The notes: generated by a model from the letters alone, not told the origin. Shown: positions 15,702-64,000, numbered from the stretch's first letter. The stretch: 64,000 nt of DNA from Balneolaceae bacterium (GCA_009711805.1 VEMX01000019.1:1-64000), one strand, 5' to 3'. Numbers and translations: made by a program.

Positions 15702-15711
15702 TTGTATCAGT

Positions 15712-42469: not shown

Positions 42470-42478
42470 AATCTCCGC

Positions 42479-43870: not shown

Positions 43871-43880
43871 GTTTATACTC

Positions 43881-45885: not shown

Positions 45886-47427
45886 TTAATCCTTTTTTAA
45901 TTCGATGTAACCCTGGGCTCCTTTATCATTAATAACGCCCAAAATAACCGATCCATTTTTATTGAGTTGTTTGGTCAGAAGTTCTTCTAAAGTTGAGAGA
46001 TCTTCAACCTTTTCTTTATTAAGGCTCACAATTTTTTGATTCTCTTTTAATCCCCGGTTCCAGGCTTCAGAATACTGGTCCACATCGGTTACTACTATTT
46101 CTGGTGTTTCTTCTTCCTCTCTTTCAATAGCCATAACTCTGAAACCCAGGTCAAATTCTCTGAACTGTATATTAGCGCCTTCATTTTCGGGAATTTCCAA
46201 TTGCAGTGGAGCGTCATCATAATTCAATTCAGATATTTCTTCCCTTTCCATTTTTTTGAGGGAAACCTGCTTTTCTATTTCTGTTCCCTCTCTCCAAATT
46301 TTCAAATGTACAATATCACCGGGCTGTTGAACAGCAACCTGCTGCTGCAACTCGTTCGAAGCATTTACCATAGTGCCATTTACTGCCAATACCACATCGC
46401 CAGCCTCTATACCCGAATTATCAGCTGCATCACCGGGCACCACAGTTATAATTTCTACCCCACGTACGGTGTTCATTCCTTTTTCCAATGCTCTGCTGTG
46501 ATCTATACCCGAAATAGTAACTCCAAGCAGCCCTCTTCTGAATTTTCCATACTGAATAATGTCTTCTGCTACCTTTATGGCCAGGTTGCTGGGTACCGCA
46601 AAACCATATCCCTGGTAGTTTCCATCCTGAGAAGCAATAGCAGTATTTATACCTATCAGCTGCCCACTTGTATTTACCAACGCTCCGCCGCTGTTTCCCC
46701 GGTTAATGGCTGCATCTGTTTGTATAAAGCTTTCTATACGCATGCGGTCGTTAATAATCCGAACCTCGCGACTGAGTGCGCTCACAATACCAGCTGTTAC
46801 TGTGGAACGCAATCTAAAAGGATTTCCTACAGCAAGTACCCATTCCCCAACATCCAGTGTCTCTGAATCGCCTACGGTTACAGTAGGTAAGTTTTCTCCT
46901 TCAATTTTTATAACGGCAAGGTCGGTACTGGAATCCTTTCCTACTATCTTTGCCATATATTCTCTTTTATCATTCAAAATCACTTTCAATCCCTTTTTTA
47001 CCGCTCCCTCAATCACATGATTATTTGTAAGAATGTATCCATCCGAGCTTATAAGTACTCCAGATCCTACCGTGCGGGCTCTTTTTGGCATCAACCGATC
47101 CCAAATGCTTTCTTCATTATCCTCTTCGCTGTCAAAATTGTGGGTTTCATCATTTGGTATAGCACCATCTACCGGTATAATTGCTTCTATATATACAACC
47201 GTTGGGGTGACTTCTTCAGCTATTTTTTTAAAAAGAAATCGGGCATCTTTTTCTTCGAGCTCCTCATCAGTTATAAAGGGCTCAGAGCTTTTATTGATCT
47301 CTGTGGTTTTGACTTCGGCAAGCGGAGCTAATTCATCATTTATTGTATATAGGGCAACTAATGTACCTATGGTAACACCAATTAAAACCAGCAATAATCC
47401 TGTTAGCAGAAAATCTCTTTTTCTCAT
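45886..47427 (-). CDS. HtrA/Do-family serine protease with two PDZ domains
   Basis: This 513-residue inner-membrane-anchored protease has one N-terminal membrane helix (about 6-28), a trypsin-like domain with H137 (LTNNHVIEGA), D169 (DSSTDLAVIKI) and S246 (NRGNSGGALVN), then PDZ1 (about 305-400, RRGLLGVTI... GVEIITVVPGDAADNSGIE) and a second PDZ-like domain (about 425-505). It should degrade misfolded periplasmic proteins and also act as a chaperone. An acidic segment (about 95-110) precedes the protease domain. The recO gene is 10 bp upstream and the lipoprotein gene directly abuts downstream. Regulation by envelope stress is normal for the family but not visible here. Confidence 0.95.
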   Translation of the reverse strand: MRKRDFLLTGLLLVLIGVTIGTLVALYTINDELAPLAEVKTTEINKSSEPFITDEELEEKDARFLFKKIAEEVTPTVVYIEAIIPVDGAIPNDETHNFDSEEDNEESIWDRLMPKRARTVGSGVLISSDGYILTNNHVIEGAVKKGLKVILNDKREYMAKIVGKDSSTDLAVIKIEGENLPTVTVGDSETLDVGEWVLAVGNPFRLRSTVTAGIVSALSREVRIINDRMRIESFIQTDAAINRGNSGGALVNTSGQLIGINTAIASQDGNYQGYGFAVPSNLAIKVAEDIIQYGKFRRGLLGVTISGIDHSRALEKGMNTVRGVEIITVVPGDAADNSGIEAGDVVLAVNGTMVNASNELQQQVAVQQPGDIVHLKIWREGTEIEKQVSLKKMEREEISELNYDDAPLQLEIPENEGANIQFREFDLGFRVMAIEREEEETPEIVVTDVDQYSEAWNRGLKENQKIVSLNKEKVEDLSTLEELLTKQLNKNGSVILGVINDKGAQGYIELKKD

Positions 47428-47437
47428 AATTCCGTTA

Positions 47438-48166
47438 TTAAATCATCTGTTCAAAAATAGTGTCAGACCGTCGTTCTTTGTATCCATCAATATGATATTT
47501 GAAATAGACATCTAAATGATGAACAAGTTGTTTTAGCTCTCCATTCTCTAAGTCAATATTGAATATCGCTTTGCTTTTGCTCCGGAGGCCTTGTAACACA
47601 AACCGGCTTTGGGCCGGAGTTAGCTTATAGGATAACTCCTCACTGGCCGAATTGGATACTGACCCACCTGCAACATTTAAGTATGTATGGTTTGCTTCGT
47701 TTTCAATATCAGGATGAATTCCAATCCCTATTATTTCAGCCATGCGAAGCTGGACATACGCAAACACAGAAGGAAAAGTTGTATCCGATTCTCCCAGCCA
47801 TTGAATGAAATTACCGGCAAAATTAAATACGGGTTTATTCACTTCATTATCATGAACAAGCTGAGCCACCAGTTCCAAAGTTGCATATAGAACGGCGGCT
47901 CTTTGAAAATCTTTCCTGAAAATATCAGATTTATAAAAAACGGAAGCTTCCGTCAGGGTTTGGACTCCCCTGTTGGCTTTATAGTAGTATACCACATCCA
48001 GAATATTTCCTACATCCAGTAATCCGGTAAATTTGTTTTTGGGTCTTTTTGCTCCTTTGGCTATAAGAGCAATTTTGCCATGTTCGGATGAGAGGACCGT
48101 CAGTATTTTGCTGGAGTCCTGATAATCAATGGCTTTTAAGAGAATAACTTTGGTATGACTAATCAC
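47438..48166 (-). CDS. recO: DNA repair protein RecO
   Basis: RecO anneals single strands and helps load RecA through RecFOR. The 242-residue protein has the N-terminal OB-fold (HTKVILLKAIDYQDSSKILTVLS, with GKIALIAKGAKRPK) and the helical C-terminal region with RAAVLYATLELVAQL. The zinc cysteine motif found in many RecO proteins is absent, which is common in this lineage. The start is GTG at 48166; its position gives the correct length. This GTG lies inside a perfect 12-bp inverted repeat (48158-48169 with 48191-48202), which could hide the start in mRNA. It is 10 bp from the HtrA gene. Confidence 0.93.
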   Translation of the reverse strand: MISHTKVILLKAIDYQDSSKILTVLSSEHGKIALIAKGAKRPKNKFTGLLDVGNILDVVYYYKANRGVQTLTEASVFYKSDIFRKDFQRAAVLYATLELVAQLVHDNEVNKPVFNFAGNFIQWLGESDTTFPSVFAYVQLRMAEIIGIGIHPDIENEANHTYLNVAGGSVSNSASEELSYKLTPAQSRFVLQGLRSKSKAIFNIDLENGELKQLVHHLDVYFKYHIDGYKERRSDTIFEQMI

Positions 48167-48237: not shown

Positions 48238-48630
48238 CTATGCAGCTACCGAATTCAACACTTTGTTTAAAGAGTTAAACAGTGAATCTCTGGACACGGG
48301 TTTTCCGAGCATAGCTGTTGCCCCAAGTTTGGATGCTTTTACCTTATACTCTTCTGAACTGGTAGACGAAATATACATGAAGGGTATTTTCAATGTAGGG
48401 TACAAGCTTGTAACCATATTGTACAGTTCAAATCCATTTATTTCGGGCATCTCAATATCCGAGATAAATGCATCAGGGGTGTGTATGCTCAGCGATTGTA
48501 CAGCATCTGCCAGCTTTTCAAATGACATTACACGAAACCCTTTGGCTTCCAATACTCTAACGAGCAATGTCCGATATACCGAGCTGTCTTCAACTACAAA
48601 TAATAATCGGTTTTTGTTTGAATTCTTCAT
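48238..48630 (-). CDS. Stand-alone CheY-like receiver protein
   Basis: This 130-residue single-domain response regulator has no output domain. It carries the acidic pocket (VVEDSS, E14/D15), phospho-acceptor D58 in SDIEMPEING, the switch Ser/Thr in YISSTSS (about 89-90) and the invariant Lys in LGKPVS (K110). It should be phosphorylated by an unlinked kinase and act through protein contact. It starts 12 bp after the stop of the giant surface gene and is the last gene of that cluster on the minus strand. This linkage suggests control of the surface system rather than gene expression, by inference. The recO gene follows. Confidence 0.9.
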   Translation of the reverse strand: MKNSNKNRLLFVVEDSSVYRTLLVRVLEAKGFRVMSFEKLADAVQSLSIHTPDAFISDIEMPEINGFELYNMVTSLYPTLKIPFMYISSTSSEEYKVKASKLGATAMLGKPVSRDSLFNSLNKVLNSVAA

Positions 48631-48642
48631 TTCTATTGTTTT

Positions 48643-51600
48643 TTAATCATCAATTTTTACGCTGTAAGTTATAGTACCAGATGAACCGGGCATCAGTGAA
48701 CCACTAAAAACCCATTTTATGACCCCTGTTTGACCACTTCCCGGATCGGTAATGGTACAAGCTGTTAAATCATTAGGCAGGTTGGCGCATGCTGCAGACT
48801 GGAAAGAAGTATAGGCAGGAGTATCATCCGTAATCTCCAATGAAGTGATAGGCTGATTACCGTTGTTCTGATAATCAATTGAATAGGTTAGTACAGCCCC
48901 GGGAATGGCCTGCGCCTTATCTACAGCTTTCATAATCACTAATCCCCCTTGAGTCTCACTTACAATAACTAAATCTGTTCTGCTCAAGTCCTGTTTTATT
49001 TCCGGACTCGTATTAGCAAGAGTGAAATTAGCCTTGATTGTTACATTATTAGTTGACCCTGCTTGCACTCCCATAGGCACTGTTACTTTTACAGCCAGAC
49101 AAACTGTTTGGTTGGCGGATACAGTAATTGCCGTACTGCCGTCCAGTGCCGGTTCTCCCGAATCAACTGTTCCATTACAGTTCGAATCCTGGTACAAATT
49201 AACGGGCCAAACCGGATTCGAATTTGCTGTTCCATTCTCAGCTTCAAAAAGTACCGAACCGGCTGTTCTAGCTATAAACTGGTGAGTAAAAGTGGCCGTT
49301 GCTCCCGGAAATTGATTTTGTTGTCCGTCGGTAAGTAATGTACTTATTTGAACATCTGCGAAATTAACCCCGGTATATTCATCGCCGGCATTTACCAAAA
49401 AGGTAACTATATCTGTAGCAATGGTATAGCTACCGCCTGTATTTCCTGCATCCCCTCCTGTAGAGGTATAACTGGCCGGGGATTCTTCAATTACTTTAAC
49501 TGTACCCCCATTGGCTACCTCAGATTTTGGGATGAATAGGGTATACCCCCCACTGGCATTCAATACCGATTCGTCGATAAGTATATCGCTTGCATCTTTT
49601 GCTTTTATGGTAAACCCTGTTTGTGATATACCGCCCTCCGTACCATTTTGAATAGCATCGTTGGCAACCCCGCTTCCTATTCCATTATCATTGAAAACAG
49701 TTCCCTGAATCCTGGAACCAAGGAAATCTCCAAAGTTCATGGTTGCAGGGTTATTATTTACTTCAACAGGACGGACATTAGGGCTGGTTGAAATATGCTC
49801 ATTGGGATCTATCGCAGCAGGCGTACATACATCCGGAGTTGGAATACTTTGTCCGTAGGCTTCAATCACTTCATAGTCACCATTTAACACATTGGTAAAT
49901 TCATAATATCCGTCAGAATCCGTGAGTACACTCTTACAGTTATTTTCTGAAACGTTATAAAGCACCACTGTTATACTCTGCAGGCCATTTTCCGTATTCT
50001 CCTTCACCGAATTATGGTTAGTATCGGTGTATACATAACCGCTGACAGAAACACCGGTAGGTACAATACGCTGATTAGAACTAAATTCTGAGGTACTGCT
50101 TCCGCTGTTAATGGCAATAGCTGTAATACGGTCGTTCGTGGCAAGACTGATTCCACCCGGGATTGCAATACTTTCGTTAAAAGTGCCATCCGAATTGGTT
50201 GTTATAGTACCGATATAATAACGCCCCTCCCCATGTGGACGAACCAGGCTTCCTCCTTCTTCAATCAGGCCATCGTTGTTGCCGTCATCGTCGGCTTTAT
50301 AGATTTCAACCGTATAGGTGCCTGACAATTTTGTTGCATTGGTTCCTATAAATCCTTCTACTTTTAAGTCAGAGCTTTCAATAGTAGCCAAAGTAAACAT
50401 CGGGTAATCAAGTCCCTGATTGGGCTCGGTAGTGCCACTTACAATGCTTCCATCGTTTGGGGTTACCCCATCTGCCTGCCCGGATGAACCTCCTCCATAG
50501 GTAGTTACCACATCTATGGAAATACCGTGGTTGTTATAAAAACTATTTTGTGAAATTCTTATCCCCTCTACAGACTGGGAGTTAGGGAAGCTAAGTCGTA
50601 CACCGGCTCCCAATTTTTGTCCACCTGAAGAATAATTATCACCATTCCCGGCAATTATGTTTGTTTCTATCAATGAGCTTTCTGCCCTGTCGATTACTGT
50701 GATTCCTGTTACGTTATTTTGGAGTATGCTATTATCCCGGATGGTAACATTTTGGGCCGTAGCTGATGAAGAACCAAATTCAATACCTGCTCCTCCCGAA
50801 ACTGAGGAACTTGACCCATTACCGTTTTGGTGAATCAGGTTTTGCTCTATCGTCCAGCTTCCTGTGAATTGAAGGCCGTCTGCATCTGTATCACTTAACG
50901 CATTTTTGTAAAACTCATTCTTATAAAAAGTAACATCGGAGTTCGCATTGGTACCTTCTGCTCCATTCCCAGAGGCATAAACGATGTAGTTTTCCCGAAT
51001 AAGGATATTCAGGCTGGAACTTCCATTCACAGAAACACCATCGTCAACCCGCGAAGAGCCTCCGGGATCAGTACCATCCGCCCGGCTACCTATCAGGGTG
51101 TGTTCAATTAGCCCACCCGTTGTATTAGAAAGGCTAATCGCAATTGAATTGTTGTATAGCGCAATATCCCTGACGGTTATTGCTCCGGTACTGTTAATCC
51201 TGAAGGCATTATTTCCGGCATCATTTAAATTTATTTCAAGCTCTTTACGTTCAAAAGTATTTAGTGAGAGGCCATCTGTGCCTACACTGCCTCCCGAACC
51301 AACACTTCCAGTGTTGGTATCCTCTTCGCTCAGAGGGGCGTTCCTATCAAAAGCTGTACCATCTACAGTAGTAAGGGGATCAGTAAGTGCAGGTAATTCC
51401 GATGTAAGACTAACACTCCACCAGCTGCCTCCACTGCCGCTTTGATTGGTTGATACAGCAGGTACAAACCGCATGGTATTGGCCCCACTTTCCTGGTTGG
51501 CATTTTGGATGAATTGCCGTAATGAACCTTGTATGGACCGACCTGCGGATCCGTCATCATCTCCATCATCAATATTCGTGACCACATTAAAGCTGAAGCC

Positions 51601-54600
51601 GAAATCGATATCCGAAATTTGGGATCCGGTCATATTTACTTTGGCGATATGTTCTGCATTCAGTACATCACTTGCTGAAGGACTCGAAGATATATTATCG
51701 GATACATCACCTCTTCGACCTCCAAAGCAGTTACCGGCAGAACCAAGCGTGGAACTTCCCCCGGCTCCATCGCTACATATTCCATCCCCGGGTGCATAGG
51801 TTTGTTCTGCCCAGGATGTGCCATCAGAAAGATCTCCTGTTTTGGAATTAACAGCAATCCAGTAAGTACCATTCTCCCCAATCTGGAAGGCGTAATATCC
51901 TTCGTTATCTGTTGTTTCGGTTTTGATGTATGTGTCGTCACTTCCATCGGCTGCCCCATCTCCTCCATCCTTAAATAACAAAAGCTCTACATTTTCGGCT
52001 GCCTGCTGATCTCCGCTTGCATCCCCAAAGTTGGTGTCTCCATCCGTTATACCATCTCCCGTTAAGTCGTGAAATATGGTACCTTCTATAATGGTGCTAA
52101 CATCCACGGCTACTTCGGAAGTATCATTATTTATATTTGGATCGTGTTGGTTAAACCCAAGCACATGCGCCTTATTTGTGATTGTTGAGCCGGTATTCCC
52201 TGAATTAACGGTAGTCTCTAAAGCCAGAGTGGCCGAACTTCCTGAATTAAGTGTGCCCAAAGCCCAGGTGTCCGTAATCTGATTATAAGTACCCTGGCTT
52301 GGCACTGCTTCTACCAATGAAAGGTCGCTGGGAAGATCTTCGTGAATGTCTACCTCTGTAGCATCCTCGGGACCATTGTTGGTTACCGTTACGGTATAGT
52401 TAATGGTTTCATTTTCCAGTGGATTGGCTTCATCAACCGTTTTAATAACTTGCAGATCGGCATTTCGGTTTGTAACCACAGGATTGTCAAACTCTTCATT
52501 CAGACATCCGCGGAAATCAATGTCTACCAATCGCTGACTGTCGTATCCCCCTGTAGGCATAGATCCCGTTCGCACCTCTAATTCTGAGGTATATTGATAG
52601 GTGATATAGGCCATGTGATCGGTATCAAAAGAACCGCTGGCATCGGTGGTGGTCGAAGAGGCAAATATCTCAAAATCATCTTCGGTGGTTAACGTAAGAT
52701 TTGTACCCGATTCTACCGTATTAGAAACGTTTTGTGCAAAGCCGAGATAATCGCGGATACTCTCTCCCCCCGTTTGCCACCCGTCAATATCCAATCCTGT
52801 CATAGAAAAATTTCGTTTAACCGGACTGGTTGTACCCGTTTGTACAATCGTGATTTCCCAATCGATATATCCATTGCTGGTTCCATTTTGGGTTTCAAAC
52901 AATGGACTAAAATTAGCAGGACTGTCGGAAACGCTGTTGTTATCCAGCTCATTAAGCACTGCATTACTTATTTGCTTGATCTTAACCAGGGCGTCCAGTC
53001 CGGAAGCTATATTATTAAACCGGTAAATAGCGTTAACCTGTTTATCCACCCCTTGTTCAAGAGTGTAACCATTAAAGGAAAACATCGGAGGTTCATTACA
53101 GCTCAATCCCGATCCCGAATCATATACCAGGATATCTACCGATGCAGAATTATTAGGCTCAAAACCGTCCAGCCCATCTACATCATACAGCGAAGCCGTA
53201 TTGGTGATAGTTTCTCCCTCTTCTCCATTCTGAATGGTTGCCGAAAGTTGAAGAGTAGCTGTTTGTAAGCCCGACATATTTCCAATATCCCAAATACCTG
53301 TTGAGCTGTTGTACGTACCCTGGCTTGGGTTAGAAGAAACAAAGGTAAGCCCGGATGGTAAGTCATCATTTATCTCTACATCATTTACTGTTTTACCTTC
53401 ATTATTTGTAGCCTGAATGGTATAAGTGATGGTATCGCCCACTTCAGGAGAGTTATCATCTACCGATTTGGTCACGGCAATATCCACTACATCGGTAGTC
53501 ACCGGATTGTTGAAATTGTTAATCTCACATGGATCAAAGTTAACTGAGACAATCCGGTCATCAACCGTACCATCTGACTTCATTCCGGTTCTTAACTTAA
53601 ACGTTGGTTCGTTCGTGTAGGTAGCATATACCTTGTATTCCGAATAATTGGAATACTCCGGCCGGGTATCATTATAGTTGTTGGAAACAAATGTGGTGTA
53701 GATATTTTCCGCGCCGGTAACCAGTTCAGTTGTATTTTCAACCGTAAAGGAGGTCAGGTTTTCGTAACCTACAAAGTCACGGAGATTTCCGGTACCGTCA
53801 ACATCTGATGTGGTGGCAGTAAAAGATAAGTATCTCGAAAAGTCAGTGCTGTTATCATAAAATCTAATCTCGAAATCGATGTACCCGTCATCTCCGCTTT
53901 GATTTTCAATAAAAGGAGAAAAATCATTGGGCAAGCCGCTGGTTCCTTCATCATCAATATCTTTAAGGTCGGCGTTATAAATGGTTATAATTTCTACTTC
54001 GGCATACACCCCACTCATCACGTTTGGAAATTTATACACTGCCCCTACCTGTCCGTCTATCCCACTGATGAGGGTTTCATTCTCAAATGTTAGCAGCGGG
54101 CGGTCGTTACAAGTGGTTGGTGTAGACGGAGGCACCACATTAATACTTGCCGTGGCCGAGTTATCGCTGGCGTTAGGGTCTTCCTGGTCAAGATTATGAA
54201 GGGCCGCAGTATTATCTATGGCACTGCCCTCGGTATTACTCTCTACCCTTGTTTCTATGGTAAGCGTTACACTTGCACCATTGGCGAGAGTACCAATATC
54301 CCAAATCCCTGTAGATGTATTGTAAGAGCCGGTACTTGGGGTATCATCAAGATACTCAAGGCCGGTGGGTAACTGATCTATAATCTCGAGGTTAGTAGCT
54401 GTTTTAGGGCCATTGTTCACCACTGTTATGGTATAATCAACAAATGCCCCCTCGGTGGGTGCCGATTTATCTGCACTTTTGGTAATGGCTATATCTGCTT
54501 TTTCGGGACTCACCGTAATACCTGCCGACTGGCTGTTATTGGATAATTCAGGGTCGGTCTCATTTAAACCGGTAATTTGGGCAGTATTAGTGATTACATT

Positions 54601-56247
54601 CCCCAATGTTCCCGTATTAACGGTAGCCGAAATTTGAAGGGTTACGCTGTCTTCAGCAGCTACAGAACCTACATCCCAGATTCCTGTCCCCGATGTGTAT
54701 GTGCCTTGGTCGGTACTGGACGACACATAGGTAATACCAGGCGGTAACTGATCGGTAAGCTGAATTCCGGAGGCATCGAATGTGTCTGAAGTATTCTTAA
54801 GCCCGATGGTGAACGTAATTTGTTCACCCTCAATGGGTTTAGAGTTGTTAACTGTTTTAGTGATTCTAAGATCAGGCGTGGGAGGAACTGAAATAGTAAC
54901 CTCGTGATCTTCCACTTCGCCATCAGTAGCATTTCCTGTAGGATTTGAGATCTCCGCCAAGGAAGAAGCAATTCTAAACCGGGCGTGAGACGTCCCAGTC
55001 GTTAAACCGGAAAGACCACTCCAGTTTAAGGTTACACTACCTGAAGCACAGGTGCCGGAATCATACTCTCCCACATCAAAAGAACCGGAACGATCAAAAT
55101 CTACCCAACCTCCTACATTACCTCCATCAGTACACACCAGGGTTACGCTGTAGGATGTCTGATCGGTGGTTAACCCGGGCATTACCGAAATAGCATCCTC
55201 ATCATCCCCATTACCCATACCTGATGACTCATTATCATCTCCCTGTGATTGTGGACCGGGAGCTCCGTTACCGTCTCCATCAACACCAGCACCGAAATAT
55301 ACACTTGGAGAAACACTATTACTTAGAAAATGAAAGGCCGGGGATACCGCTCCTGCACTGTAACGGGTATAGTAAGAAGTTGGGGCATCTCCAAAGTCGG
55401 CCACTATAGCCATTCCGAAATGAATGTTATCGGGCTGAGAATCTACTTTCCTGATTTCGATTCTGTCTACATTTGTATCGGTGATTCGGAACCAAACGGG
55501 TACTGAGGATGAACTACAGGCAGAATTAGCTGATACTGTGGGTCTGATTTCAACCGTCGTATTTCCGTTGGTATACACCAGGTTAACAGTGTTGGTACAT
55601 ACTCCGCCATCGGTACCCTGTCCCGTCAACCAGTCGTTTACCGTAAGTTTGGTATTGCCGGAATCGTAGGCTTCCAGTGTGTACGACGTATTACCCGAAG
55701 CCGGGCGTAACCTGTTAAACGCAAGAATAACAGCATCGGATGGTATGCCTGATGGAATCTCAATATCAAAAGAAGTAGCATCTCCGCTGTTACCGGTGGG
55801 ATTCACCTGTGGGCCATTATACTTATCCCCAGAAAAAACTCCACTAGCCCATTCCTGAAGGGCATTGGGGGCAAAAGTTGTTTGGGGGCCAACTGCCGTA
55901 ATCGTACCAATAGTGGCATCTCCTACGATTGCGCTCATGGTTGTGCCATCATAAGTTCCATCGAAGCAGGCCCATGCAGCATCCTGCCCGTTAATAATTG
56001 GGCAGGGATCGGGAGCAAAGCCAGCCACTCGTGTTGTTGGGTTCTTATATGGTATCCCTAAAAAACCTGTGGAAAATTCCGGTTTCCCCACGGGGGACTC
56101 TGCTTCTACTATAAACTCTTGTTGCGGAGAGGGGCCCTCAAACGATAATGTATTATCATTATACTGGGCATTAGTAATTCCTGGTAAAGCTGCCAGCAGC
56201 AGTATAACACTCAATATTTGATATGTAGCTATTCTATATTTCCTCAT
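48643..56247 (-). CDS. Giant multi-domain surface protein (GEVED, DUF11, beta-helix, SdrD-like)
   Basis: This protein has about 2534 residues. I place the start at 56247 (MRKYRIATYQILSVILLLAA, signal peptide); an upstream in-frame start would overlap the previous gene. A GGAGG lies upstream of the ATG. Domains: a GEVED-type region with Gly/Asp-rich loops (about 300-440); DUF11 repeats at about 455 and 580; an unrecognised domain from about 713 (CNDRPLLTFENETL); DUF11 at about 917; a second copy of that domain from about 1048; DUF11 at about 1262; SdrD-like domains near 1386, 2070 and 2180; a right-handed beta-helix-like region (about 1660-1920); and a final DUF11 from about 2430. There is no type IX sorting domain. 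It is probably a surface adhesin or structural protein, follows the OmpA-linked gene by 4 bp, and is cotranscribed with it. Confidence 0.88.
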   Translation of the reverse strand: MRKYRIATYQILSVILLLAALPGITNAQYNDNTLSFEGPSPQQEFIVEAESPVGKPEFSTGFLGIPYKNPTTRVAGFAPDPCPIINGQDAAWACFDGTYDGTTMSAIVGDATIGTITAVGPQTTFAPNALQEWASGVFSGDKYNGPQVNPTGNSGDATSFDIEIPSGIPSDAVILAFNRLRPASGNTSYTLEAYDSGNTKLTVNDWLTGQGTDGGVCTNTVNLVYTNGNTTVEIRPTVSANSACSSSSVPVWFRITDTNVDRIEIRKVDSQPDNIHFGMAIVADFGDAPTSYYTRYSAGAVSPAFHFLSNSVSPSVYFGAGVDGDGNGAPGPQSQGDDNESSGMGNGDDEDAISVMPGLTTDQTSYSVTLVCTDGGNVGGWVDFDRSGSFDVGEYDSGTCASGSVTLNWSGLSGLTTGTSHARFRIASSLAEISNPTGNATDGEVEDHEVTISVPPTPDLRITKTVNNSKPIEGEQITFTIGLKNTSDTFDASGIQLTDQLPPGITYVSSSTDQGTYTSGTGIWDVGSVAAEDSVTLQISATVNTGTLGNVITNTAQITGLNETDPELSNNSQSAGITVSPEKADIAITKSADKSAPTEGAFVDYTITVVNNGPKTATNLEIIDQLPTGLEYLDDTPSTGSYNTSTGIWDIGTLANGASVTLTIETRVESNTEGSAIDNTAALHNLDQEDPNASDNSATASINVVPPSTPTTCNDRPLLTFENETLISGIDGQVGAVYKFPNVMSGVYAEVEIITIYNADLKDIDDEGTSGLPNDFSPFIENQSGDDGYIDFEIRFYDNSTDFSRYLSFTATTSDVDGTGNLRDFVGYENLTSFTVENTTELVTGAENIYTTFVSNNYNDTRPEYSNYSEYKVYATYTNEPTFKLRTGMKSDGTVDDRIVSVNFDPCEINNFNNPVTTDVVDIAVTKSVDDNSPEVGDTITYTIQATNNEGKTVNDVEINDDLPSGLTFVSSNPSQGTYNSSTGIWDIGNMSGLQTATLQLSATIQNGEEGETITNTASLYDVDGLDGFEPNNSASVDILVYDSGSGLSCNEPPMFSFNGYTLEQGVDKQVNAIYRFNNIASGLDALVKIKQISNAVLNELDNNSVSDSPANFSPLFETQNGTSNGYIDWEITIVQTGTTSPVKRNFSMTGLDIDGWQTGGESIRDYLGFAQNVSNTVESGTNLTLTTEDDFEIFASSTTTDASGSFDTDHMAYITYQYTSELEVRTGSMPTGGYDSQRLVDIDFRGCLNEEFDNPVVTNRNADLQVIKTVDEANPLENETINYTVTVTNNGPEDATEVDIHEDLPSDLSLVEAVPSQGTYNQITDTWALGTLNSGSSATLALETTVNSGNTGSTITNKAHVLGFNQHDPNINNDTSEVAVDVSTIIEGTIFHDLTGDGITDGDTNFGDASGDQQAAENVELLLFKDGGDGAADGSDDTYIKTETTDNEGYYAFQIGENGTYWIAVNSKTGDLSDGTSWAEQTYAPGDGICSDGAGGSSTLGSAGNCFGGRRGDVSDNISSSPSASDVLNAEHIAKVNMTGSQISDIDFGFSFNVVTNIDDGDDDGSAGRSIQGSLRQFIQNANQESGANTMRFVPAVSTNQSGSGGSWWSVSLTSELPALTDPLTTVDGTAFDRNAPLSEEDTNTGSVGSGGSVGTDGLSLNTFERKELEINLNDAGNNAFRINSTGAITVRDIALYNNSIAISLSNTTGGLIEHTLIGSRADGTDPGGSSRVDDGVSVNGSSSLNILIRENYIVYASGNGAEGTNANSDVTFYKNEFYKNALSDTDADGLQFTGSWTIEQNLIHQNGNGSSSSVSGGAGIEFGSSSATAQNVTIRDNSILQNNVTGITVIDRAESSLIETNIIAGNGDNYSSGGQKLGAGVRLSFPNSQSVEGIRISQNSFYNNHGISIDVVTTYGGGSSGQADGVTPNDGSIVSGTTEPNQGLDYPMFTLATIESSDLKVEGFIGTNATKLSGTYTVEIYKADDDGNNDGLIEEGGSLVRPHGEGRYYIGTITTNSDGTFNESIAIPGGISLATNDRITAIAINSGSSTSEFSSNQRIVPTGVSVSGYVYTDTNHNSVKENTENGLQSITVVLYNVSENNCKSVLTDSDGYYEFTNVLNGDYEVIEAYGQSIPTPDVCTPAAIDPNEHISTSPNVRPVEVNNNPATMNFGDFLGSRIQGTVFNDNGIGSGVANDAIQNGTEGGISQTGFTIKAKDASDILIDESVLNASGGYTLFIPKSEVANGGTVKVIEESPASYTSTGGDAGNTGGSYTIATDIVTFLVNAGDEYTGVNFADVQISTLLTDGQQNQFPGATATFTHQFIARTAGSVLFEAENGTANSNPVWPVNLYQDSNCNGTVDSGEPALDGSTAITVSANQTVCLAVKVTVPMGVQAGSTNNVTIKANFTLANTSPEIKQDLSRTDLVIVSETQGGLVIMKAVDKAQAIPGAVLTYSIDYQNNGNQPITSLEITDDTPAYTSFQSAACANLPNDLTACTITDPGSGQTGVIKWVFSGSLMPGSSGTITYSVKIDD

Positions 56248-56251
56248 AACC

Positions 56252-59200
56252 CTATTCACCTCCATTGCCAGAGACATTCACATTCTCAAGATTAATCAGC
56301 TTCATCTCATCAGCTCCCTCATAACTGAATTCAACCTGATCAGCTGTTACTGTTGTATCAGTCACAAGCCCTATCCTGTCCTTACCTATACCCCAACTAA
56401 CCAAATAACCGTAAATAGCTCCTGCCCTTTCCACATTTATACCCTTCCCATTATATTGAATCTCTATTGTTGCTTTTGGAGTCCGGTTGAGGAATGAGCC
56501 GATTCTGGATACCATGGCTTTGTTCTCGATACTCAGATCTGCCATATAGTTTTCAAATATCAGATTCTGAGGAAGCATCATAGTCTGTATGTCTGCACTT
56601 GTCAGTAAATGGTCTTTACGTTTCCTCAGTATGCTCAACAGATTATCCATCATCTCCAGTGCCTGCTTATTTTGAGCGAACTTAATATCGTCTTGCTGTG
56701 CATATACTTTTAAACCGTTCACATTAGAATAGGTAAAGCGTACCCCTCTTAGCTCAGGATTAACCCGTGTTGTAAACCGTTCTTTCTCTATCCCTTCTTT
56801 TATGAGAATAGAAGCAATAGCTTCAGCCAGGTGTGCATTTTTAGCTGTAATATTGAGTGCTACATTATCAAACTGATGGAGTACAATTCCTATTCTGTGG
56901 GTCATGTAGGTATGAACCTCGTTGAATGAAGAACCGGATACGTTAAATGCCCCTGGCACGGCATTGTGCTGAGCAGTAAATACATAATCCCAATCACCAA
57001 TACCGGCTATTGCTTCATTCACTTGCAAGTCTTCAATCTGATCGATGAATCGTACATTCAGCTTGTCAATATTAAGTTCAAGTTCTACCCGGCGGTTGGC
57101 GGCCATATCTACCCGGTCATTCTCTATTCGGGCTTCCTCGCTGTAGCTTAAACCCTCAAACTTTAGTTTTTTCGGATCTACACCTGCAGCTACAAAATAT
57201 GCACGTACTGCTTTGGCCCGCTCTTCAGAAAGCTTCATGTTATAGGAATAGGAGCTTTTAGTGTCGGTATGTCCAGTTAAACGAATGTAGTATTCATCTT
57301 CATTAGTCAGGAAACTGGCCACTTTGTCTAACATGTTTGCGGCGGCTTTATTTATATATGTGCTATTGTTGTTGAAGTGAATTAAACGCGGCAGTATATA
57401 GAATTGTCCATAATTGATATTTCTTGCCACCAATGGTGTAGTAATGCCTGGAAGTTTAAACTGTGGGAAGGAATACTTTATCAACTTATCAGCTGGTTTT
57501 TCACATTCCTCAGCACATATTAAATACCTGGATTCATCCAATATTGAATTGCTTCTTCGGGGTGCAAGGCTTCGGAATATTTGCTCGTCAAATTTATAAC
57601 TAAAACCGGCATACACCCCTCGCTGGGTGTAGTTGTTTGCTGCCAGATCTTCATCCTCGTAACCGAAGAAATTAAATCCTGACGCCAGGCGGAGATTGGT
57701 AGCTACCAGGAAACCGGCCTCAACACCCAAGCCATAATCCTTAATCGTAAAATCACTGTTGGCAATCAGGCTTGCGTTAATGCCGGCATCCCACTTTTCA
57801 TTAATATCATGAGTCAGGCGACCGGATACCAGCTCAAGGAAGCTAGCCGACTTAATCAGATCATCCTGCTCTACAGATCGCTTGGCTGCAATACGACCCG
57901 AAAATGTCCAGTCGGTTTCGGGATGATAATTCATATGAGCTGACATCACATGGGCAGCCCGGAAATGCTCATCCGCTATATTGGCATTTTTTTCATATTT
58001 AAACTCATAGCGGAAAAGAGCGTCAAAGCGGTTATGGTAAGAATCCCGGTAAGCCGCCCCTACTCTGAATCGCTCGGCTACTTTACTTAACCCGCTTTTT
58101 CCTTCCTGCGTATTTAATGAAAGAATATTTTTCCCCAGGAATGTCCAGTTTGGGCTTATGCGGTATCCTATTCCAAAAGTATTCAGGTATGTATTTGCCT
58201 GACTGCTAAAACGAGCCTCGGCTCTTGCCGTACCTTTCCAGTTTGGATTTGCGGTGTACTCTACCGATGAAGAAATTGCGGTTCCATCATTAGAAGAGGG
58301 CCCTTTTATGGTAAATATACGCTCGAAACCAACGTTCAATCCAAAACCTTTACTTAACTCAAAACGGTTTCTAAGCCCTATGGCTGCCTGACCACTTTTC
58401 CCGTCCATAGCATCATCAATGCGATATTCACTGTACACCTGCCCATTTTTCATATAATCTACATCCACCCCAAATACCGAGTTATTACGGCGGGCGCTTC
58501 CACTCATGGTATACCGCCCTCCTGTACTTGATATAAACTCATGGCGTGCATACAGTTTTGCAATATTTTTAATTTTATAATCGCCGCCTATCGCCATTAA
58601 TTTACGGGCTTTCTGGTGCAGATCCTGCTCATACTCAGCAGATATTGAAGCGCCTTTAACAAACGGTAAATCCGTTATAATTTCACTTCTCAAGTTTGTG
58701 CTCTTAGTGTCTCCGGAGGTTGGTTGTTTTTGTTCAGAGTGGCGTACTCCTATTTCTGCATTCATGTACTTGCCGAATGACTGCTGCACATTTACAACCC
58801 CACCCATTGTTTCGGCTCCTGAAGTATCATTTCTTGAAAACAGGAACTCACCATTGAGGTTAGTCGATTTAGTTACACTCAACCGGCTTCTAACTTTAGC
58901 TTCCGTTCTGCCTTGTCCCAGGGTGGCGCTTCGATTGTTGAAGTTCTTATCAGAGCTGCCTAATTGAGCTGTTACATCAAGTTTATCGCCCTGTCTTTCT
59001 ATTTGAACTCGTCCAGCACTTCCGGAACCTTTCGATTCTGTATGGGTGTTGGCTACTTCGGCCACTATGCGCGTTTTCTCACCCAGCTCCATACTCACTG
59101 TTCCGGAAGTCAGCGTAAGTTGATCCTGAGGATTATTATCCTGAACAATATTAGCTCCTAATTCAACCGACTCTCCCAGTTTAACAGCTCCATCAATTCC

Positions 59201-62200
59201 TCCTATGAAATACCGTTCTTTATCATTTTCTACTTCGTAAGTAGCTCGGATAAATACAGGGTTAAATTCTTTATCTACACTGGATACAGGATTTCGGAAT
59301 GTAATTACTCCGTTAAAAGGCTCAATAGCATAATCCGTAAACCTTGTAAGCCTTCTCACATCCAGGATCACTTCGGGTTGATCGCGATCGTATGTGACGA
59401 TCTCAATAATTTCACTGTTTTCAATAATATCATCATCCGGAAGTTCGTAGCGAGAAATACCCTGTCCTCTGAATTCTCTCACTCTGTTTGTAGAAAAGGA
59501 GCTTACGGCAAATGCGCTGGCTTCCATATTATCATTTTCCAAGTGTGCTTTAACCCCGGTTTGTGCCCTGCTATAATCCCCTAATTGACGATCCTGAGAT
59601 CTTTTCTGCGTGATGAAATCGCCATAAAGCGCATAGGTTTTATTTCTGTCAACCCGGATATAAAGTCGGCTGGTGGATTGTGCGTCAAATCCTTTGATAG
59701 ATGACTCACCATATACCGGGTAGAATTCATCGGGATTAATATCTCTGAAGAGGGCATCTTCTTTATTTTTCTCGGAGTCGTAACCGGCGGTGAGCAAGGT
59801 TTTACCGCTCACTTTTCCTTTCAGGAAGAAAGATACACGCCCATCGCCCGTAAAGTTGTTCATATCATAGGTCAGCGACTTCAATTCTCTTTCAAAGCCA
59901 TCATCGCCTTTGGCAGATGCAATATTAAGCGGATCTCTTAGCCGGATATTCCCCTCAATTATACCTGCTGCAATCAGCGGCCTTAAGTCGGGGAGGAAAT
60001 CAACCTTCGCTTCATCGCTAAGTTCGCCGGCATGTGCTCGTACAGTTACGGTTCTGGGTTCTATGGTTGATATAAGCTCAAATTCGGCCCTTCCATTTTC
60101 AACAAATACCTGGGTACCTGATTCTTTGTCATTCAGATCTTCAGCATTCCATTTTCCAAATGAAACATCCAATGTTACCGGAATACGGGATCCAACGGGT
60201 ATTCCTTGCTTATCCAGCAGTTCAACCCGTACTACGGCGGCTGATGTACCGTCGGCAGATACATCATTCACCGGAATATTTACGTTCAGTACATGAAGTT
60301 CTCCGGGGGCGTAAACACGGATCGTTTCTGTATCTCGTTCATTGCCAAACGGATCTACCTCTTTAAGGGTGATATTGTTTATGCCCGGTTTAAGTGAAAT
60401 ACTTACAAATTCCCACACTTGCAGATCTTTATGGCTGGAAACAGACCGCTGACCAATTTTATTTTCTTCTGTATCCTTTCCATTTACTGACAGTACAAAG
60501 TTGGCTCCTCTGCGGCCTTTGACCCAGAATGTGTTTTGATCTGAAGTAAGCGTATCTCCATCAACGATATTAAGGAACCCTAGTCCGGCTTCAGCTTTTA
60601 AAAGAGCCCATTCCATTTTATTCAGCTCTACCGAATCTGCCTTGGCTACAGCTGAATCGACCGGAGCATCTGAGGTGCCGGGAACTATTTGTTCTGCTTC
60701 GGGAGTTTGTATTTCATTTAAAGTTCCACTGGCTTTATCAAAGTTAACATTTTTAGCGTTGTTGGATCGATTATCTACATTCAGCTTTTTGGTAATATCC
60801 TTTTCCATCATCTGATCAGAAACAGACTGGAATGCTTTTGTTCGAGCGTTAATCTCTTCATGTACAGCTGGTGTACAGTTACAGATGGCAAAATCAGCCC
60901 GGTGCATTTCTCCTTTTTTCAGGTCTACAAAACGACTGGATGGGTCGTTGGCCTGGCGATTGTCAATAACCAACAGTTCACTTCCTTTTGGCAAGGAGTA
61001 ATTGTCTACCTTGAGGATATGCTTGTTTGGCTTTATGGCATAGAACGAGTACTTCCCTTCTCCATCGGTAATTACATAGTTACCATTTTCCAGGTACAGC
61101 CTTACACCGGGCACTCCTGCCTCTCCCCGGTCTTGCATGCCATCTTTATTACAATCCAGAAATACCTTACCTATTATATAGCCATCATCGGTAAATACAC
61201 CGCCATTAACTTCTACTTTTACCTGTGCTTTATTACTTACCTTGATAATAGCTTCATCACTCTCAGCTATTGCTGTGTTAATGCCGTCTCCCTTTTCAGA
61301 GCCCGGTCCAACATACACCTGGTACATAAGTTCTAAAGAAGTGCCGGGTTCAATTGCCCCCAAACTAAAGCTAAGATCCGGCCCTTTGCCTCCTTCGGGG
61401 TTATCGATTCGTTCTCCATCAATACGTGCCGAGCCAAGCTGATATACAAACCCAAATGGAAGCTCATCATATAAAGTAAGGTCATTAATCGTATTTACGG
61501 CTTCACTTCGGATAGTCAGTGTATAGTAGATGAAGTCTCCAATTTCTGCCACTTTCTTATTCACCTTCTTTTCAACAAACAGCACTCCCTTTCCTTTGGG
61601 ATCCAGGGGTATGTCAAAATCAACTCCCTGTGGTTCTTCCTCAAATACAAATGTTTGCCCATATGATCCTTCCGCATCTATCTCCCTGTCCTCCGGAAGT
61701 TGATCCGGGCTCAACTCAGAAGCAAAGTTATACCCGCTGGGAGGATTAACCTCTATTCTATATTCGCCCGGCAGCAAGTAAGGGTATTCGAATTTACCTT
61801 CCTGGTTGGTGTATTGGATATTCTCAATCGCTTTTTCTGCGTCGGCATCCAACACTTCCGCCAGGCCGCCGGCAATACCTCCGTTGGTTACTCCATTTAC
61901 GTCAATAATGCGTACTTCAGCGCCGCTTACAGGGGTATTGGTTTCACTATCAAACACTATACCTGATGGGTCAACGACCACTCGGGCATTAATAACAGCG
62001 GAACCACCACTGCCATTGCCGCCATTATCGCTGTCAAGACCTTCACAATTAAGAATAGCCTCTAACTCATCACCTTCAACTGTTTCCAGAATTTCATTAC
62101 CAAGTATAACTTCATGTTCCAGTCCGTCTCTTGTGGGTATTTTTTTGTTAACTCGGAAGCGGCCGGAATTAGGTCCTGTTTCAGTGGCATTAAAAAGTTC

Positions 62201-63418
62201 TTTATCGCCGGTAATCAGAGAATTAATTTCTATCGTAGCTATATCTACTTCATTTCGGGAGATATTGCAGGCAGAAGCAACCGCTTCGAGATGTAAATCG
62301 GCACCAATGGTAGATGTACCTGTCGTATTGGTAAATGTGTCGTCTGTGAAATAATCAATGTCTGCATCTTTTTCAGGTAATTCAGTTATCACTGTATTGG
62401 ATGCTGCTTCGGTTTCTACATTTCCGTTGGGATCTACAAATGAAATCTCGGCTGTATTTTCAATTTGGCCGGTAGCCCCGTCATTTATTTTTACATCAAA
62501 CAATATTTCAAAGCTCTCATTAACTTTCAGAGAATCGAAGGCTACGGCTACAACATCAACCTGATCCAGGTCTGCCGGGGGCGACATTGAAAATTCAAAT
62601 GCACCATCACCGGATGTATGAAATAAAGCTGTTCCTTTTTCCAGATCGGCGAAGCCAACCAGTGAAGTATTGGCAGGAACCGAGTCTACAAGCACTACTT
62701 TCTTTTGTAACTGGCTATTGATGGTTACATCCCGGCCAATAGCGGTTACATCTCCGGTATTTACCCCGGCTATAGAATAGGTAAAGGTATCGCCGGCCTG
62801 TATATCGTCAGCGCCGATTTGTTCCTTCTGGAGTTCAATATCGGCTCCTATTAATACTTTAATGGAATCTGTATTCTGCAGGGTAACTCCATACTGAGCT
62901 GAGGTAGCTTCTACTTGAACCACAGCTTCAATTTGATCATTAATCAGAGCTGAGCTCACCATCCCGGAATAGGTGAAGTCAAATTGCTCGCCGGGACCTA
63001 ATGTAACCGATGCTCTTAGCGTGTCATCACTTAGTTGTTTTGATTTGCCCTGGTGCTCCCAAGCCATATTGTCCAGGTCAAAGTCATCACCGGGCAAATT
63101 ATAGATAGCCAATTCAAATGAAGATGATACATTGCCTTTATTCTTAAGCACATGACTCAAGCTTTGAGTTCGCCCTTTAAACGTCTTTATGACATGATCA
63201 GGCTCTAAAGAGAAGGTGGGGTGAGACTGCACTATAACTTTTACTGTATTCGACTGAATGCTTACCCCATCATCTCCTTCCGGAGCGTTAAAAATTGTTT
63301 TAGCCTGGTTAATAATTGCTGTACCCGGAGGGGGGGTAGTTTGTTGCGCATACACCTTTACCATACCTGTCCCCAGCAGGAACATCATCAACGCTATGTA
63401 TGGCTTTAAGTGTTTCAA
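56252..63418 (-). CDS. Giant DUF11/SdrD/beta-barrel/OmpA fusion protein (outer-membrane partner)
   Basis: This protein has about 2388 residues. I prefer the TTG at 63418 (MKHLKPYIALMMFLLGTG, signal peptide, cleavage after VYAQ) over a TTG at 63469, since a hairpin lies between. Order: DUF11-like repeats (about 30-330 and 610-720); a CnaB-like insert (about 490-570); SdrD-like GKVFLDCNKDGMQDRGE (about 745); Ser/Asp-rich linkers; an Ig/BIG1-like strand block (about 1040-1150); a strand-rich barrel-like stretch (about 1190-1950) with the family motif YPVYGESSIKGFDAQ; an OmpA domain (about 2010-2115) with TGHTDTKSSYSYNMKLSEER and NRRVELELN; and a ~275-residue tail with a degenerate second OmpA-like module. 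It probably anchors the neighbouring giant proteins. The barrel count is inferred. Confidence 0.88.
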   Translation of the reverse strand: MKHLKPYIALMMFLLGTGMVKVYAQQTTPPPGTAIINQAKTIFNAPEGDDGVSIQSNTVKVIVQSHPTFSLEPDHVIKTFKGRTQSLSHVLKNKGNVSSSFELAIYNLPGDDFDLDNMAWEHQGKSKQLSDDTLRASVTLGPGEQFDFTYSGMVSSALINDQIEAVVQVEATSAQYGVTLQNTDSIKVLIGADIELQKEQIGADDIQAGDTFTYSIAGVNTGDVTAIGRDVTINSQLQKKVVLVDSVPANTSLVGFADLEKGTALFHTSGDGAFEFSMSPPADLDQVDVVAVAFDSLKVNESFEILFDVKINDGATGQIENTAEISFVDPNGNVETEAASNTVITELPEKDADIDYFTDDTFTNTTGTSTIGADLHLEAVASACNISRNEVDIATIEINSLITGDKELFNATETGPNSGRFRVNKKIPTRDGLEHEVILGNEILETVEGDELEAILNCEGLDSDNGGNGSGGSAVINARVVVDPSGIVFDSETNTPVSGAEVRIIDVNGVTNGGIAGGLAEVLDADAEKAIENIQYTNQEGKFEYPYLLPGEYRIEVNPPSGYNFASELSPDQLPEDREIDAEGSYGQTFVFEEEPQGVDFDIPLDPKGKGVLFVEKKVNKKVAEIGDFIYYTLTIRSEAVNTINDLTLYDELPFGFVYQLGSARIDGERIDNPEGGKGPDLSFSLGAIEPGTSLELMYQVYVGPGSEKGDGINTAIAESDEAIIKVSNKAQVKVEVNGGVFTDDGYIIGKVFLDCNKDGMQDRGEAGVPGVRLYLENGNYVITDGEGKYSFYAIKPNKHILKVDNYSLPKGSELLVIDNRQANDPSSRFVDLKKGEMHRADFAICNCTPAVHEEINARTKAFQSVSDQMMEKDITKKLNVDNRSNNAKNVNFDKASGTLNEIQTPEAEQIVPGTSDAPVDSAVAKADSVELNKMEWALLKAEAGLGFLNIVDGDTLTSDQNTFWVKGRRGANFVLSVNGKDTEENKIGQRSVSSHKDLQVWEFVSISLKPGINNITLKEVDPFGNERDTETIRVYAPGELHVLNVNIPVNDVSADGTSAAVVRVELLDKQGIPVGSRIPVTLDVSFGKWNAEDLNDKESGTQVFVENGRAEFELISTIEPRTVTVRAHAGELSDEAKVDFLPDLRPLIAAGIIEGNIRLRDPLNIASAKGDDGFERELKSLTYDMNNFTGDGRVSFFLKGKVSGKTLLTAGYDSEKNKEDALFRDINPDEFYPVYGESSIKGFDAQSTSRLYIRVDRNKTYALYGDFITQKRSQDRQLGDYSRAQTGVKAHLENDNMEASAFAVSSFSTNRVREFRGQGISRYELPDDDIIENSEIIEIVTYDRDQPEVILDVRRLTRFTDYAIEPFNGVITFRNPVSSVDKEFNPVFIRATYEVENDKERYFIGGIDGAVKLGESVELGANIVQDNNPQDQLTLTSGTVSMELGEKTRIVAEVANTHTESKGSGSAGRVQIERQGDKLDVTAQLGSSDKNFNNRSATLGQGRTEAKVRSRLSVTKSTNLNGEFLFSRNDTSGAETMGGVVNVQQSFGKYMNAEIGVRHSEQKQPTSGDTKSTNLRSEIITDLPFVKGASISAEYEQDLHQKARKLMAIGGDYKIKNIAKLYARHEFISSTGGRYTMSGSARRNNSVFGVDVDYMKNGQVYSEYRIDDAMDGKSGQAAIGLRNRFELSKGFGLNVGFERIFTIKGPSSNDGTAISSSVEYTANPNWKGTARAEARFSSQANTYLNTFGIGYRISPNWTFLGKNILSLNTQEGKSGLSKVAERFRVGAAYRDSYHNRFDALFRYEFKYEKNANIADEHFRAAHVMSAHMNYHPETDWTFSGRIAAKRSVEQDDLIKSASFLELVSGRLTHDINEKWDAGINASLIANSDFTIKDYGLGVEAGFLVATNLRLASGFNFFGYEDEDLAANNYTQRGVYAGFSYKFDEQIFRSLAPRRSNSILDESRYLICAEECEKPADKLIKYSFPQFKLPGITTPLVARNINYGQFYILPRLIHFNNNSTYINKAAANMLDKVASFLTNEDEYYIRLTGHTDTKSSYSYNMKLSEERAKAVRAYFVAAGVDPKKLKFEGLSYSEEARIENDRVDMAANRRVELELNIDKLNVRFIDQIEDLQVNEAIAGIGDWDYVFTAQHNAVPGAFNVSGSSFNEVHTYMTHRIGIVLHQFDNVALNITAKNAHLAEAIASILIKEGIEKERFTTRVNPELRGVRFTYSNVNGLKVYAQQDDIKFAQNKQALEMMDNLLSILRKRKDHLLTSADIQTMMLPQNLIFENYMADLSIENKAMVSRIGSFLNRTPKATIEIQYNGKGINVERAGAIYGYLVSWGIGKDRIGLVTDTTVTADQVEFSYEGADEMKLINLENVNVSGNGGE

Positions 63419-63439
63419 GTATTTGTTGTTTGTTTTAAA

Positions 63440-63466
63440 TAGGAGAAGAGGGGTCAACCCCTTCCC
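63440..63466 (-). promoter_or_regulatory. GC-rich hairpin between the two DUF11 genes
   Basis: GAAGAGGGGT and ACCCCTTCC form a stem with a 2-base loop region, within the 72-bp gap between the genes at 63491 and 63418. No strong T-run follows. It may be an attenuator or RNA processing site that sets different levels for the upstream and downstream genes. Confidence 0.4.
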
Positions 63467-63490
63467 CAAGTGGGTTATTTATAAGATTGT

Positions 63491-64000
63491 TTAGTTATTT
63501 ACTATTACAGAAAATGTAATGTCGAATGATTCTCCCGGAGCCAGCGAAGCAGATGTAACCTCAACCGTTCCGGTACTTCCTACACCAGGTTCATTGGAAA
63601 TGGCTGGCGATCCATCACCAGAAACAGCGACTGCTGTATTTTGAGTGGTATAAAAGGGAACATCATCAGAAACCGTAACCCCGGTAACTGTAGCAGCACC
63701 ATTATTGGTTACTGTTATCTTGTAGTGAACTACTTCACCAGGAAGAATGTCCTTATCTGTTTTGGCATAGGTTTGCGGGCTGCCAGATCCATTATCTAAT
63801 GCCTGGAACTTATCTACTGTAAGCAGACCAGCTACTACGGTGGTGATATCCTGATTAGATTTGTCGGACAAGACCCCTTCGTCATCACTAAGTGTAACGG
63901 TAGTTGTATTAGTAGCACCATCCTGCGCACCTGAGTTTGCAGTCACCTTTACAATGAACTTGAGCTGGGTACCATAACTCAATGCTCCTATTGTAGTATT
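63491..64000 (-). CDS. Partial DUF11-domain surface protein (C-terminal end)
   Basis: The frame is open to the right edge, so only the C-terminal ~169 residues are seen. They contain a nearly whole DUF11 repeat: PGEVVHYKITVTNNGAATVT followed by VTVSDDVPFYTTQNTAVAVS and ending SLAPGESFDITFSVIVNN. The stop is TAA at 63493-63491. No anchor or type IX sorting domain follows. The first codons read NTTIGALSYGTQLKF. It is upstream of the OmpA-linked giant gene on the same strand, with a 72-bp gap, so it is probably in the same operon. Confidence 0.85.
   Translation of the reverse strand, partial: NTTIGALSYGTQLKFIVKVTANSGAQDGATNTTTVTLSDDEGVLSDKSNQDITTVVAGLLTVDKFQALDNGSGSPQTYAKTDKDILPGEVVHYKITVTNNGAATVTGVTVSDDVPFYTTQNTAVAVSGDGSPAISNEPGVGSTGTVEVTSASLAPGESFDITFSVIVNN

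Follow-up and report, generated by a model that had tools for sequence, protein, structure and literature searches.

The question raised by this locus is how giant surface proteins encoded side by side in a bacterial operon are held at the cell and to one another. The window, i.e. the whole stretch of DNA analysed, comprises 64,000 bases from a Balneolaceae bacterium (C15:1-64000 of a 78687-base contig; the genome measures 4.08 Mb, and the named relatives nearest to it are the Balneolaceae Gracilimonas and Balneola). The original prediction described in it a row of four genes forming a self-contained surface system with linked signalling.

Organization and conservation of the operon

Reading of the open reading frames (ORFs) recovered the four genes, all on the same strand and with the expected products:

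48238–48630, minus strand: P0003, a CheY-like receiver of 130 residues (PF00072, 74.9 bits)
48643–56247, minus strand: P0001, a giant DUF11/GEVED/SdrD_B surface protein of 2534 residues (domain matches, and homologues in the same gene order)
56252–63418, minus strand: P0002, a protein of 2388 residues with DUF11, SdrD_B, Ig, putative barrel and OmpA parts
63491–64000, minus strand: P0004, a DUF11 stalk protein with donor and acceptor ends, of which the C-terminal 170 residues lie inside the window

The ORFs of P0001 and P0002 open at 56277 and, with a TTG, at 63469, respectively; counted from there, the proteins are 2544 and 2405 residues long. The whole P0004 gene extends past the end of the window (C15:63491-66286, 931 residues) and is followed by a fifth operon gene, P0005 (C15:66291-66824, minus strand; an ORF of 177 residues, about 160 from the ATG). 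The gene beyond P0005, encoding a von Willebrand/DUF58-like product, is divergent, and the start of the operon, which was to be sought beyond position 64000, was therefore placed at P0005. The operon is thus real, but its proposed extent of four genes was too small, P0005 and the split DUF11 ends described below having been missed. All eight DUF11 matches found by a genome-wide profile search lie inside this operon.

The largest protein, P0001, contains DUF11, GEVED and SdrD_B domains, all above the Pfam cut-offs. Its beta-helix match remains below threshold (21.6 vs. 25.9 bits). Homologues of P0001 in Balneolota are mostly 55–61% identical and found in the same gene order; outside Balneolota, conservation is mainly confined to the C-terminal module, as expected for a tip protein with a constant base and a variable head. 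The features of P0001 used hereafter are:

48646–48942, minus strand: truncated C-terminal DUF11 domain, acceptor half with the Asp, the Lys lying just upstream (the DUF11 match ends early)
48646–50055, minus strand: conserved C-terminal module, residues 2075–2544 of the 2544-residue ORF (the stretch shared with P0001 relatives in most distant loci)
54895–55119, minus strand: GEVED domain (PF20009, 41 bits)

Among the sampled relatives, homologues of P0002 of full or near-full length and 40–60% identity occur in about 17 genomes. The order P0004-P0002-P0001 is kept in all 16 Balneolota neighbourhoods examined, and P0005 stands ahead of P0004 in 15 of them, the exception being a locus (L028) where P0005 is not listed. 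A profile of the barrel region matches 284 encoding stretches among GTDB representatives, 80 of which were taken into a comparison of distant loci; the same set is found in most uncut loci of these 80, involving Geobacteraceae, Nitrospirota, Verrucomicrobia, Betaproteobacteria, Acinetobacter and others. Synteny in relatives, on which the predicted operon depended, hence extends over the 16 Balneolota and several other phyla, and the conservation of gene order is far beyond chance. Outside Balneolota, where it is fused, the OmpA domain is often encoded by a separate adjoining gene of about 360–450 residues (Acinetobacter, Geobacter and others), and in many Acinetobacter loci a P0001-type gene lies upstream of P0005. 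Plasmid records add clusters from Deinococcus aquaticus, Pacificitalea and Acinetobacter haemolyticus. The spread is patchy: of the 398 genomes sampled from the Acinetobacter phylum, 6 (one being the centre genome) have a strong P0004 profile match, and a barrel match occurs in 21 of 296 genomes of the window's own phylum.

The receiver P0003 does not share this conservation. Thirteen of the 14 Balneolota flanks examined carry it downstream of P0001, but the closest relative (G050) lacks it, and outside Balneolota its occurrence in the cluster is not constant. It was thus rejected as a core component, and the idea that linked signalling belongs to the system is not borne out; P0003 is a lineage-specific accessory, for which a regulatory role is possible. 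Further downstream, RecO and an HtrA-like protease were also considered as operon members and discarded, as these neighbours, although kept in Balneolota, look like chromosomal context.

A DUF11 domain divided between proteins

The DUF11 domain (PF01345), also named CLIPPER, was established as an isopeptide domain with a Lys-Asn bond in a survey of 2025, and its crystallographic triad in entry 9IFR consists of Lys 715, Asp 748 and Asn 806 (PMC12617251). Inspection of the protein ends encoded by the operon reveals two recurrent segments. Mature P0004 and P0002 open, directly behind the signal peptide, with a segment of the type PxAGTxIxNxAxAxYxDxxG...SNxVxTxV, and P0005, P0004 and P0001 end after a strand of the type LxPGxSxxITFxVxV. 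The corresponding features in the window, besides that of P0001, are:

63203–63334, minus strand: P0002 donor half of a DUF11 domain at the N-terminus, after the signal peptide (family N-termini match positions 95–128 of the local model)
63491–63757, minus strand: truncated C-terminal DUF11 domain of P0004, acceptor half with the Asp, the Lys lying just upstream (match reaching the stop codon)

These ends were compared with a local DUF11 model built exclusively from intact internal DUF11 domains; the sequences compared are phylogenetically uneven, many of them coming from Acinetobacter. The C-termini match this model in 67 of 67 P0004, 65 of 65 P0005 and 53 of 56 P0001 sequences (185/188 in total), and the match stops at median positions 93, 94 and 92, respectively, with a median of 1–3 residues left in the protein. 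Internal DUF11 domains run to about position 132, and only 0.4% of 473 end by position 100. With the Pfam model of 114 positions, the C-terminal match of P0004 covers positions 10–87, reaching the stop codon, and that of P0001 ends at position 84–90 (93 with the local model). The missing part is found at the other end of the proteins: positions ~93–134 of the local model are matched by the N-termini of 54 of 67 P0004 and 78 of 81 P0002 sequences. At E<0.01 no such N-terminal match was obtained for P0001 (0/56) or for shuffled sequences, and there was none for P0005 (0/65). P0002 thus carries a donor only, P0004 both halves, and P0001 and P0005 an acceptor only.

Joining an acceptor and a donor from the same locus increases the score by a median of 11–17 bits in all six combinations and extends the match to about position 130, whereas shuffled or random segments yield a gain of about 0 bits. 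The Pfam DUF11 model responds less, with only −0.3 to +3.6 bits for the joined halves (shuffled control, −4), its match end shifting from 84–85 to 96–102. On this sequence evidence, a DUF11 domain is split between different proteins of the operon. Fibrillar adhesins commonly contain DUF11 repeats (PMC12617251), so that the products might be seen as ordinary DUF11 stalk adhesins lying beside a porin-like protein, with truncated ends that are accidental and have no joint function. We consider this very unlikely: the same cut in three families, together with the matching complement opening two, in many phyla, would be very hard to obtain by accident.

The position of the cut also divides the catalytic residues. 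In the internal DUF11 domains of this set, the triad corresponding to that of 9IFR is formed by K8 (96%), D43 (94%) and N103 (98%), so that with a cut at position 93 the Lys and the Asp fall on the acceptor and the Asn on the donor. Alignment counts reveal that all three are conserved across the cut: the acceptor Lys in 66 of 67 P0004 and 47 of 48 P0001 sequences, the acceptor Asp in 66/67 and 46/46, respectively, and the donor Asn in 54 of 54 P0004 and 74 of 78 P0002 sequences. The donor Asn of P0002 is residue 54 of the 2405-residue ORF (63308–63310) and is invariant in 14 homologues. In contrast to the acceptors of P0004 and P0001, that of P0005 has a Leu in place of the Asp in 58 of 59 sequences, which suggests that P0005 is kept from bond formation.

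We therefore regard it as probable that the operon encodes a system by which diderm bacteria build a surface fibre or adhesin, whose subunits would be joined head to tail via a split DUF11 domain re-formed at each junction and locked by an isopeptide bond. The C-terminal acceptors of P0004 and P0001 would provide the Lys and the Asp, the N-terminal donors of P0004 and P0002 the bond-forming Asn, and a Lys-Asn bond would form autocatalytically when the two halves meet. One may also envisage donor-strand complementation that is purely non-covalent, the bond being absent or restricted to some of the junctions. Indeed, the split itself is shown by the sequences, the P0005 acceptor persists without the Asp, and not every DUF11 domain forms the bond (PMC12617251). 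Nevertheless, hardly any variation is seen in Lys, Asp and Asn across the cut in P0004, P0001 and P0002, just as in intact domains of the bond-forming type, which makes a system devoid of the covalent lock, or using it only here and there, rather unlikely.

As P0004 holds both halves, its N-terminal half could alternatively complete the C-terminal half of the same chain, so that each monomer would be closed, while P0002 and P0001 would pair directly and no polymer would be formed. An AlphaFold2 model of a P0004 orthologue (862 mature residues, 43 sequences; pLDDT 88.6, pTM 0.44) bears on this point, since its first 40 mature residues form four strands with pLDDT values of 90–94. Such a high-confidence N-terminus would not usually be expected of a free tail and agrees with docking, be it onto the same chain or another. 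A Foldseek search with this model returned generic Ig-repeat matches only. On the other hand, P0002 with a donor only, and P0005 and P0001 with an acceptor only, are found across lineages, so that pairing between chains is needed at least for these single-ended proteins. Moreover, three P0004-type units are encoded in one Acinetobacter cluster; all of them carry a donor as well as an acceptor that retains Lys and Asp, and this fits chaining. Self-complementation of P0004 accordingly appears improbable, and head-to-tail joining of separate subunits remains the reading that we prefer.

The putative P0002 barrel and the possible export of the subunits

If P0002 forms the base of such a fibre, it should be anchored in the envelope. 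The protein had been predicted to combine barrel-like strands with a peptidoglycan-binding OmpA part, and the following features of it were obtained:

57092–57376, minus strand: OmpA peptidoglycan-binding domain (PF00691, 75.6 bits, above the cut-off)
57575–59980, minus strand: giant putative beta-barrel region, approximately residues 1164–1965 (AlphaFold2 and Foldseek)
61253–61579, minus strand: internal DUF11 domain (36.3 bits)

SdrD_B and DUF11 domains are likewise above the cut-offs in P0002. The barrel region is matched by no Pfam or NCBIfam model, and none of the solved outer-membrane structures is convincingly related to it in sequence. The AlphaFold2 model calculated from a 47-sequence alignment (pLDDT 79, pTM 0.64) contains 32 consecutive long strands, residues 385–941 of the fragment, preceded by approximately seven more. 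The best Foldseek matches in the PDB are mostly outer-membrane proteins (LptD, SlpA, TonB-dependent receptors, SprA and FimD, the latter with TM-scores of 0.26/0.31), and none of the TM-scores rises above about 0.3. Because of these long strands and of the mostly outer-membrane matches, the region is likely an outer-membrane barrel of unusual size; a soluble fold of residues ~1190–1950, which would have spoken against the predicted surface system, is disfavoured by the same results. Together with the conserved gene order and the OmpA part, the barrel-like nature of P0002 upholds the idea of a self-contained surface system.

Regarding secretion, searches with Pfam and NCBIfam models detected no type IX tail in P0001, P0002, P0004 or P0005, in agreement with the earlier reading of the giants, despite 37 TIGR04183 tails elsewhere in the same genome; type IX sorting of the operon products was consequently rejected. 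The type IX system resembles the present one in having a very large outer-membrane barrel, SprA, but its cargo tails are those of other proteins of this genome, and homology of the P0002 barrel to SprA was discarded on account of the low Foldseek TM-score and the lack of a sequence match at E≤1. Classical type V autotransporters consist of an N-terminal passenger and a C-terminal 12-strand barrel (PF03797). P0002 has the passenger-then-barrel order but no match to this model, and at least 32 long strands are predicted for it.

The order passenger-then-barrel, the very large predicted barrel, the low-scoring (by TM-score) top Foldseek matches, among them LptD, SprA and the FimD usher, and the absence of type IX tails could be taken to mean that P0002 is a new, autotransporter- or usher-like secretion channel exporting P0004 and P0001, the donor being a recruitment signal instead of a structural junction. 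This reading leaves the donor of P0004 unexplained, and the P0002 barrel has no sequence relation to solved channels; we judge it extremely unlikely. A channel role as such is compatible with a split-DUF11 fibre, to which it would be an added role, and the subunits may plausibly be exported through the P0002 barrel.

Proposed assembly and relation to known systems

Halves of a DUF11 domain at the protein ends offer a concrete mechanism by which the giants could be held. In the split-DUF11 fibre that we favour, P0002 would be the base, with its barrel in the outer membrane, its OmpA domain gripping the peptidoglycan and its donor at the end of an N-terminal stalk. P0004, having both ends, would form the stalk and could be chained once or repeatedly. 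P0001, which has an acceptor only and a variable giant N-terminal part, would be the distal tip, possibly adhesive. The chain would thus run from P0002 at the membrane via P0004 to P0001 outermost, with every C-terminus directed towards the cell. P0005, the acceptor of which lacks the catalytic Asp, would probably act as a non-covalent cap or chaperone of the donor.

Several known systems share part of these properties. In chaperone-usher pili, incomplete Ig-like C-terminal domains are completed by the N-terminal segment of the next subunit. As far as can be judged from sequence, the operon proteins likewise have an incomplete Ig domain and an N-terminal complement, with a predicted acceptor-only tip, a predicted donor-only base and a likely outer-membrane barrel. 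They differ in the size of the subunits (900–2500 residues), in the apparent donation of more than one strand, in the predicted covalent lock and in the predicted barrel, which would have 32 strands or more and shows no sequence relationship. Pfam and NCBIfam searches of the operon genes turned up neither a PapD-type chaperone nor a FimD-family usher, and the barrel gave no usher sequence match. SpyTag/SpyCatcher is an engineered split isopeptide domain, and a covalent joining of the two halves would be common to it and the operon proteins, in whose sequences the catalytic residues are divided between separate chains. The version proposed for the operon is natural and part of a conserved gene set, belongs to the CnaA-like DUF11 and not to a CnaB-like domain, and carries the Lys on the large half and the Asn on the small one.

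The described CLIPPER domains belong to the same DUF11 family and have the same Lys-Asp-Asn triad as the internal copies and the combined halves studied here, but they are described only as forming an intramolecular bond within one chain, whereas here the cut falls between Asp and Asn and the halves reside on different proteins (PMC12617251). In archaeal threads, Saci_0406 subunits complement one another head to tail by donor strands and are linked by an isopeptide bond between subunits; compared by description only, this bond connects the N-terminal residue with an Asn of the second subunit further on, the subunit is archaeal, there is no barrel, and DUF11 is not mentioned in that paper (PMC9715654). 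The grappling hooks of Aureispira and Litorilinea, GhpA/GhlA, are surface filaments in which GhlA consists of tandem DUF11 Ig-like domains; in the parts of that report considered here, one giant polypeptide spans the filament and neither split ends nor a barrel partner are described (PMC13319060). No description of the gene set itself was found in the open-access literature searched, and its linking principle resembles these known mechanisms. The chances seem to us evenly divided that it represents an undescribed class of bacterial surface fibres, extending from Balneolota to Deinococcota, in which a split-DUF11 isopeptide polymer would be combined with a dedicated barrel of more than 30 strands as anchor and possible exporter, and with a catalytically dead P0005 controlling assembly.

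If true, the split-DUF11 fibre would be a natural, multi-phylum counterpart of SpyTag/SpyCatcher, in which an enzyme-free covalent ligation builds a surface structure in outer-membrane bacteria. The effects of single-residue mutants of the Lys, the Asp and the Asn are predicted by it and directly testable, and acceptor/donor pairs could serve as new ligation tools. Attention is also drawn to a barrel family that lacks a Pfam or NCBIfam model. Moreover, a function is offered for several giant 'hypothetical' proteins, including those of the Thermus thermophilus HB8 cluster, which should be thermostable and tractable. According to the plasmid records, this cluster on pTT27 encodes proteins of 164, 888, 897, 1795 and 996 residues, and P0002 is represented in it by two separate proteins, a stalk protein with the donor and one of barrel type.

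Proposed stalk genes in Acinetobacter

Two Acinetobacter loci bear on the organization of the proposed stalk, here the DUF11 protein of about 900 residues typified by P0004.

L147, reverse complement of 2857–15871: cluster of Acinetobacter ANC 4910

Three P0004-type genes (903, 885 and 907 residues) flank the tip-type gene in this cluster, and all three carry a donor, the N-terminal part of a split DUF11 domain, at the start and an acceptor, its truncated C-terminal counterpart, at the end; a multi-part stalk is therefore possible. On plasmid p4 of Acinetobacter haemolyticus (L129, 7697–9900) the P0004-type gene is split into several short ORFs while the adjoining genes are intact, which suggests a decayed (or switchable) stalk gene.

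Separate barrel genes and the wider barrel family

L131, record positions 173362–187718: cluster on pTT27 of Thermus thermophilus HB8

This is the same gene cluster as in the window, except that the barrel protein is here encoded by two separate genes; all five cluster genes are annotated as hypothetical or DUF11. On pTT27 it lies upstream of the type I-E CRISPR cas genes, with a few genes in between. A distant version of the same family occurs in two further genomes (L030 in G051, L031 in G014), with a DUF11 giant of at least 2900–3700 residues followed directly by a separate barrel protein of 1237–1440 residues. Weaker barrel relatives, some annotated as TonB-dependent receptors, were observed on plasmid records of cyanobacteria and alphaproteobacteria (H14–H29); the barrel family is therefore wider than the fibre operon.

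Neighbouring genes in the window

45886–48166, minus strand: RecO and an HtrA-like trypsin/PDZ protease, after the receiver
41153–45239, minus strand: three amidohydrolase genes in a row, each overlapping the next or spaced from it by a few bases
36137–39758, minus strand: Reg_prop/Y_Y_Y sensor kinase adjoining a LuxR-type response regulator

In 12 of 14 Balneolota flanks RecO and the protease come after the receiver, and they are probably chromosomal context. The amidohydrolase genes are apparently tandem paralogues. The kinase and LuxR-type regulator, a candidate pair, share the window with the orphan receiver (P0003).
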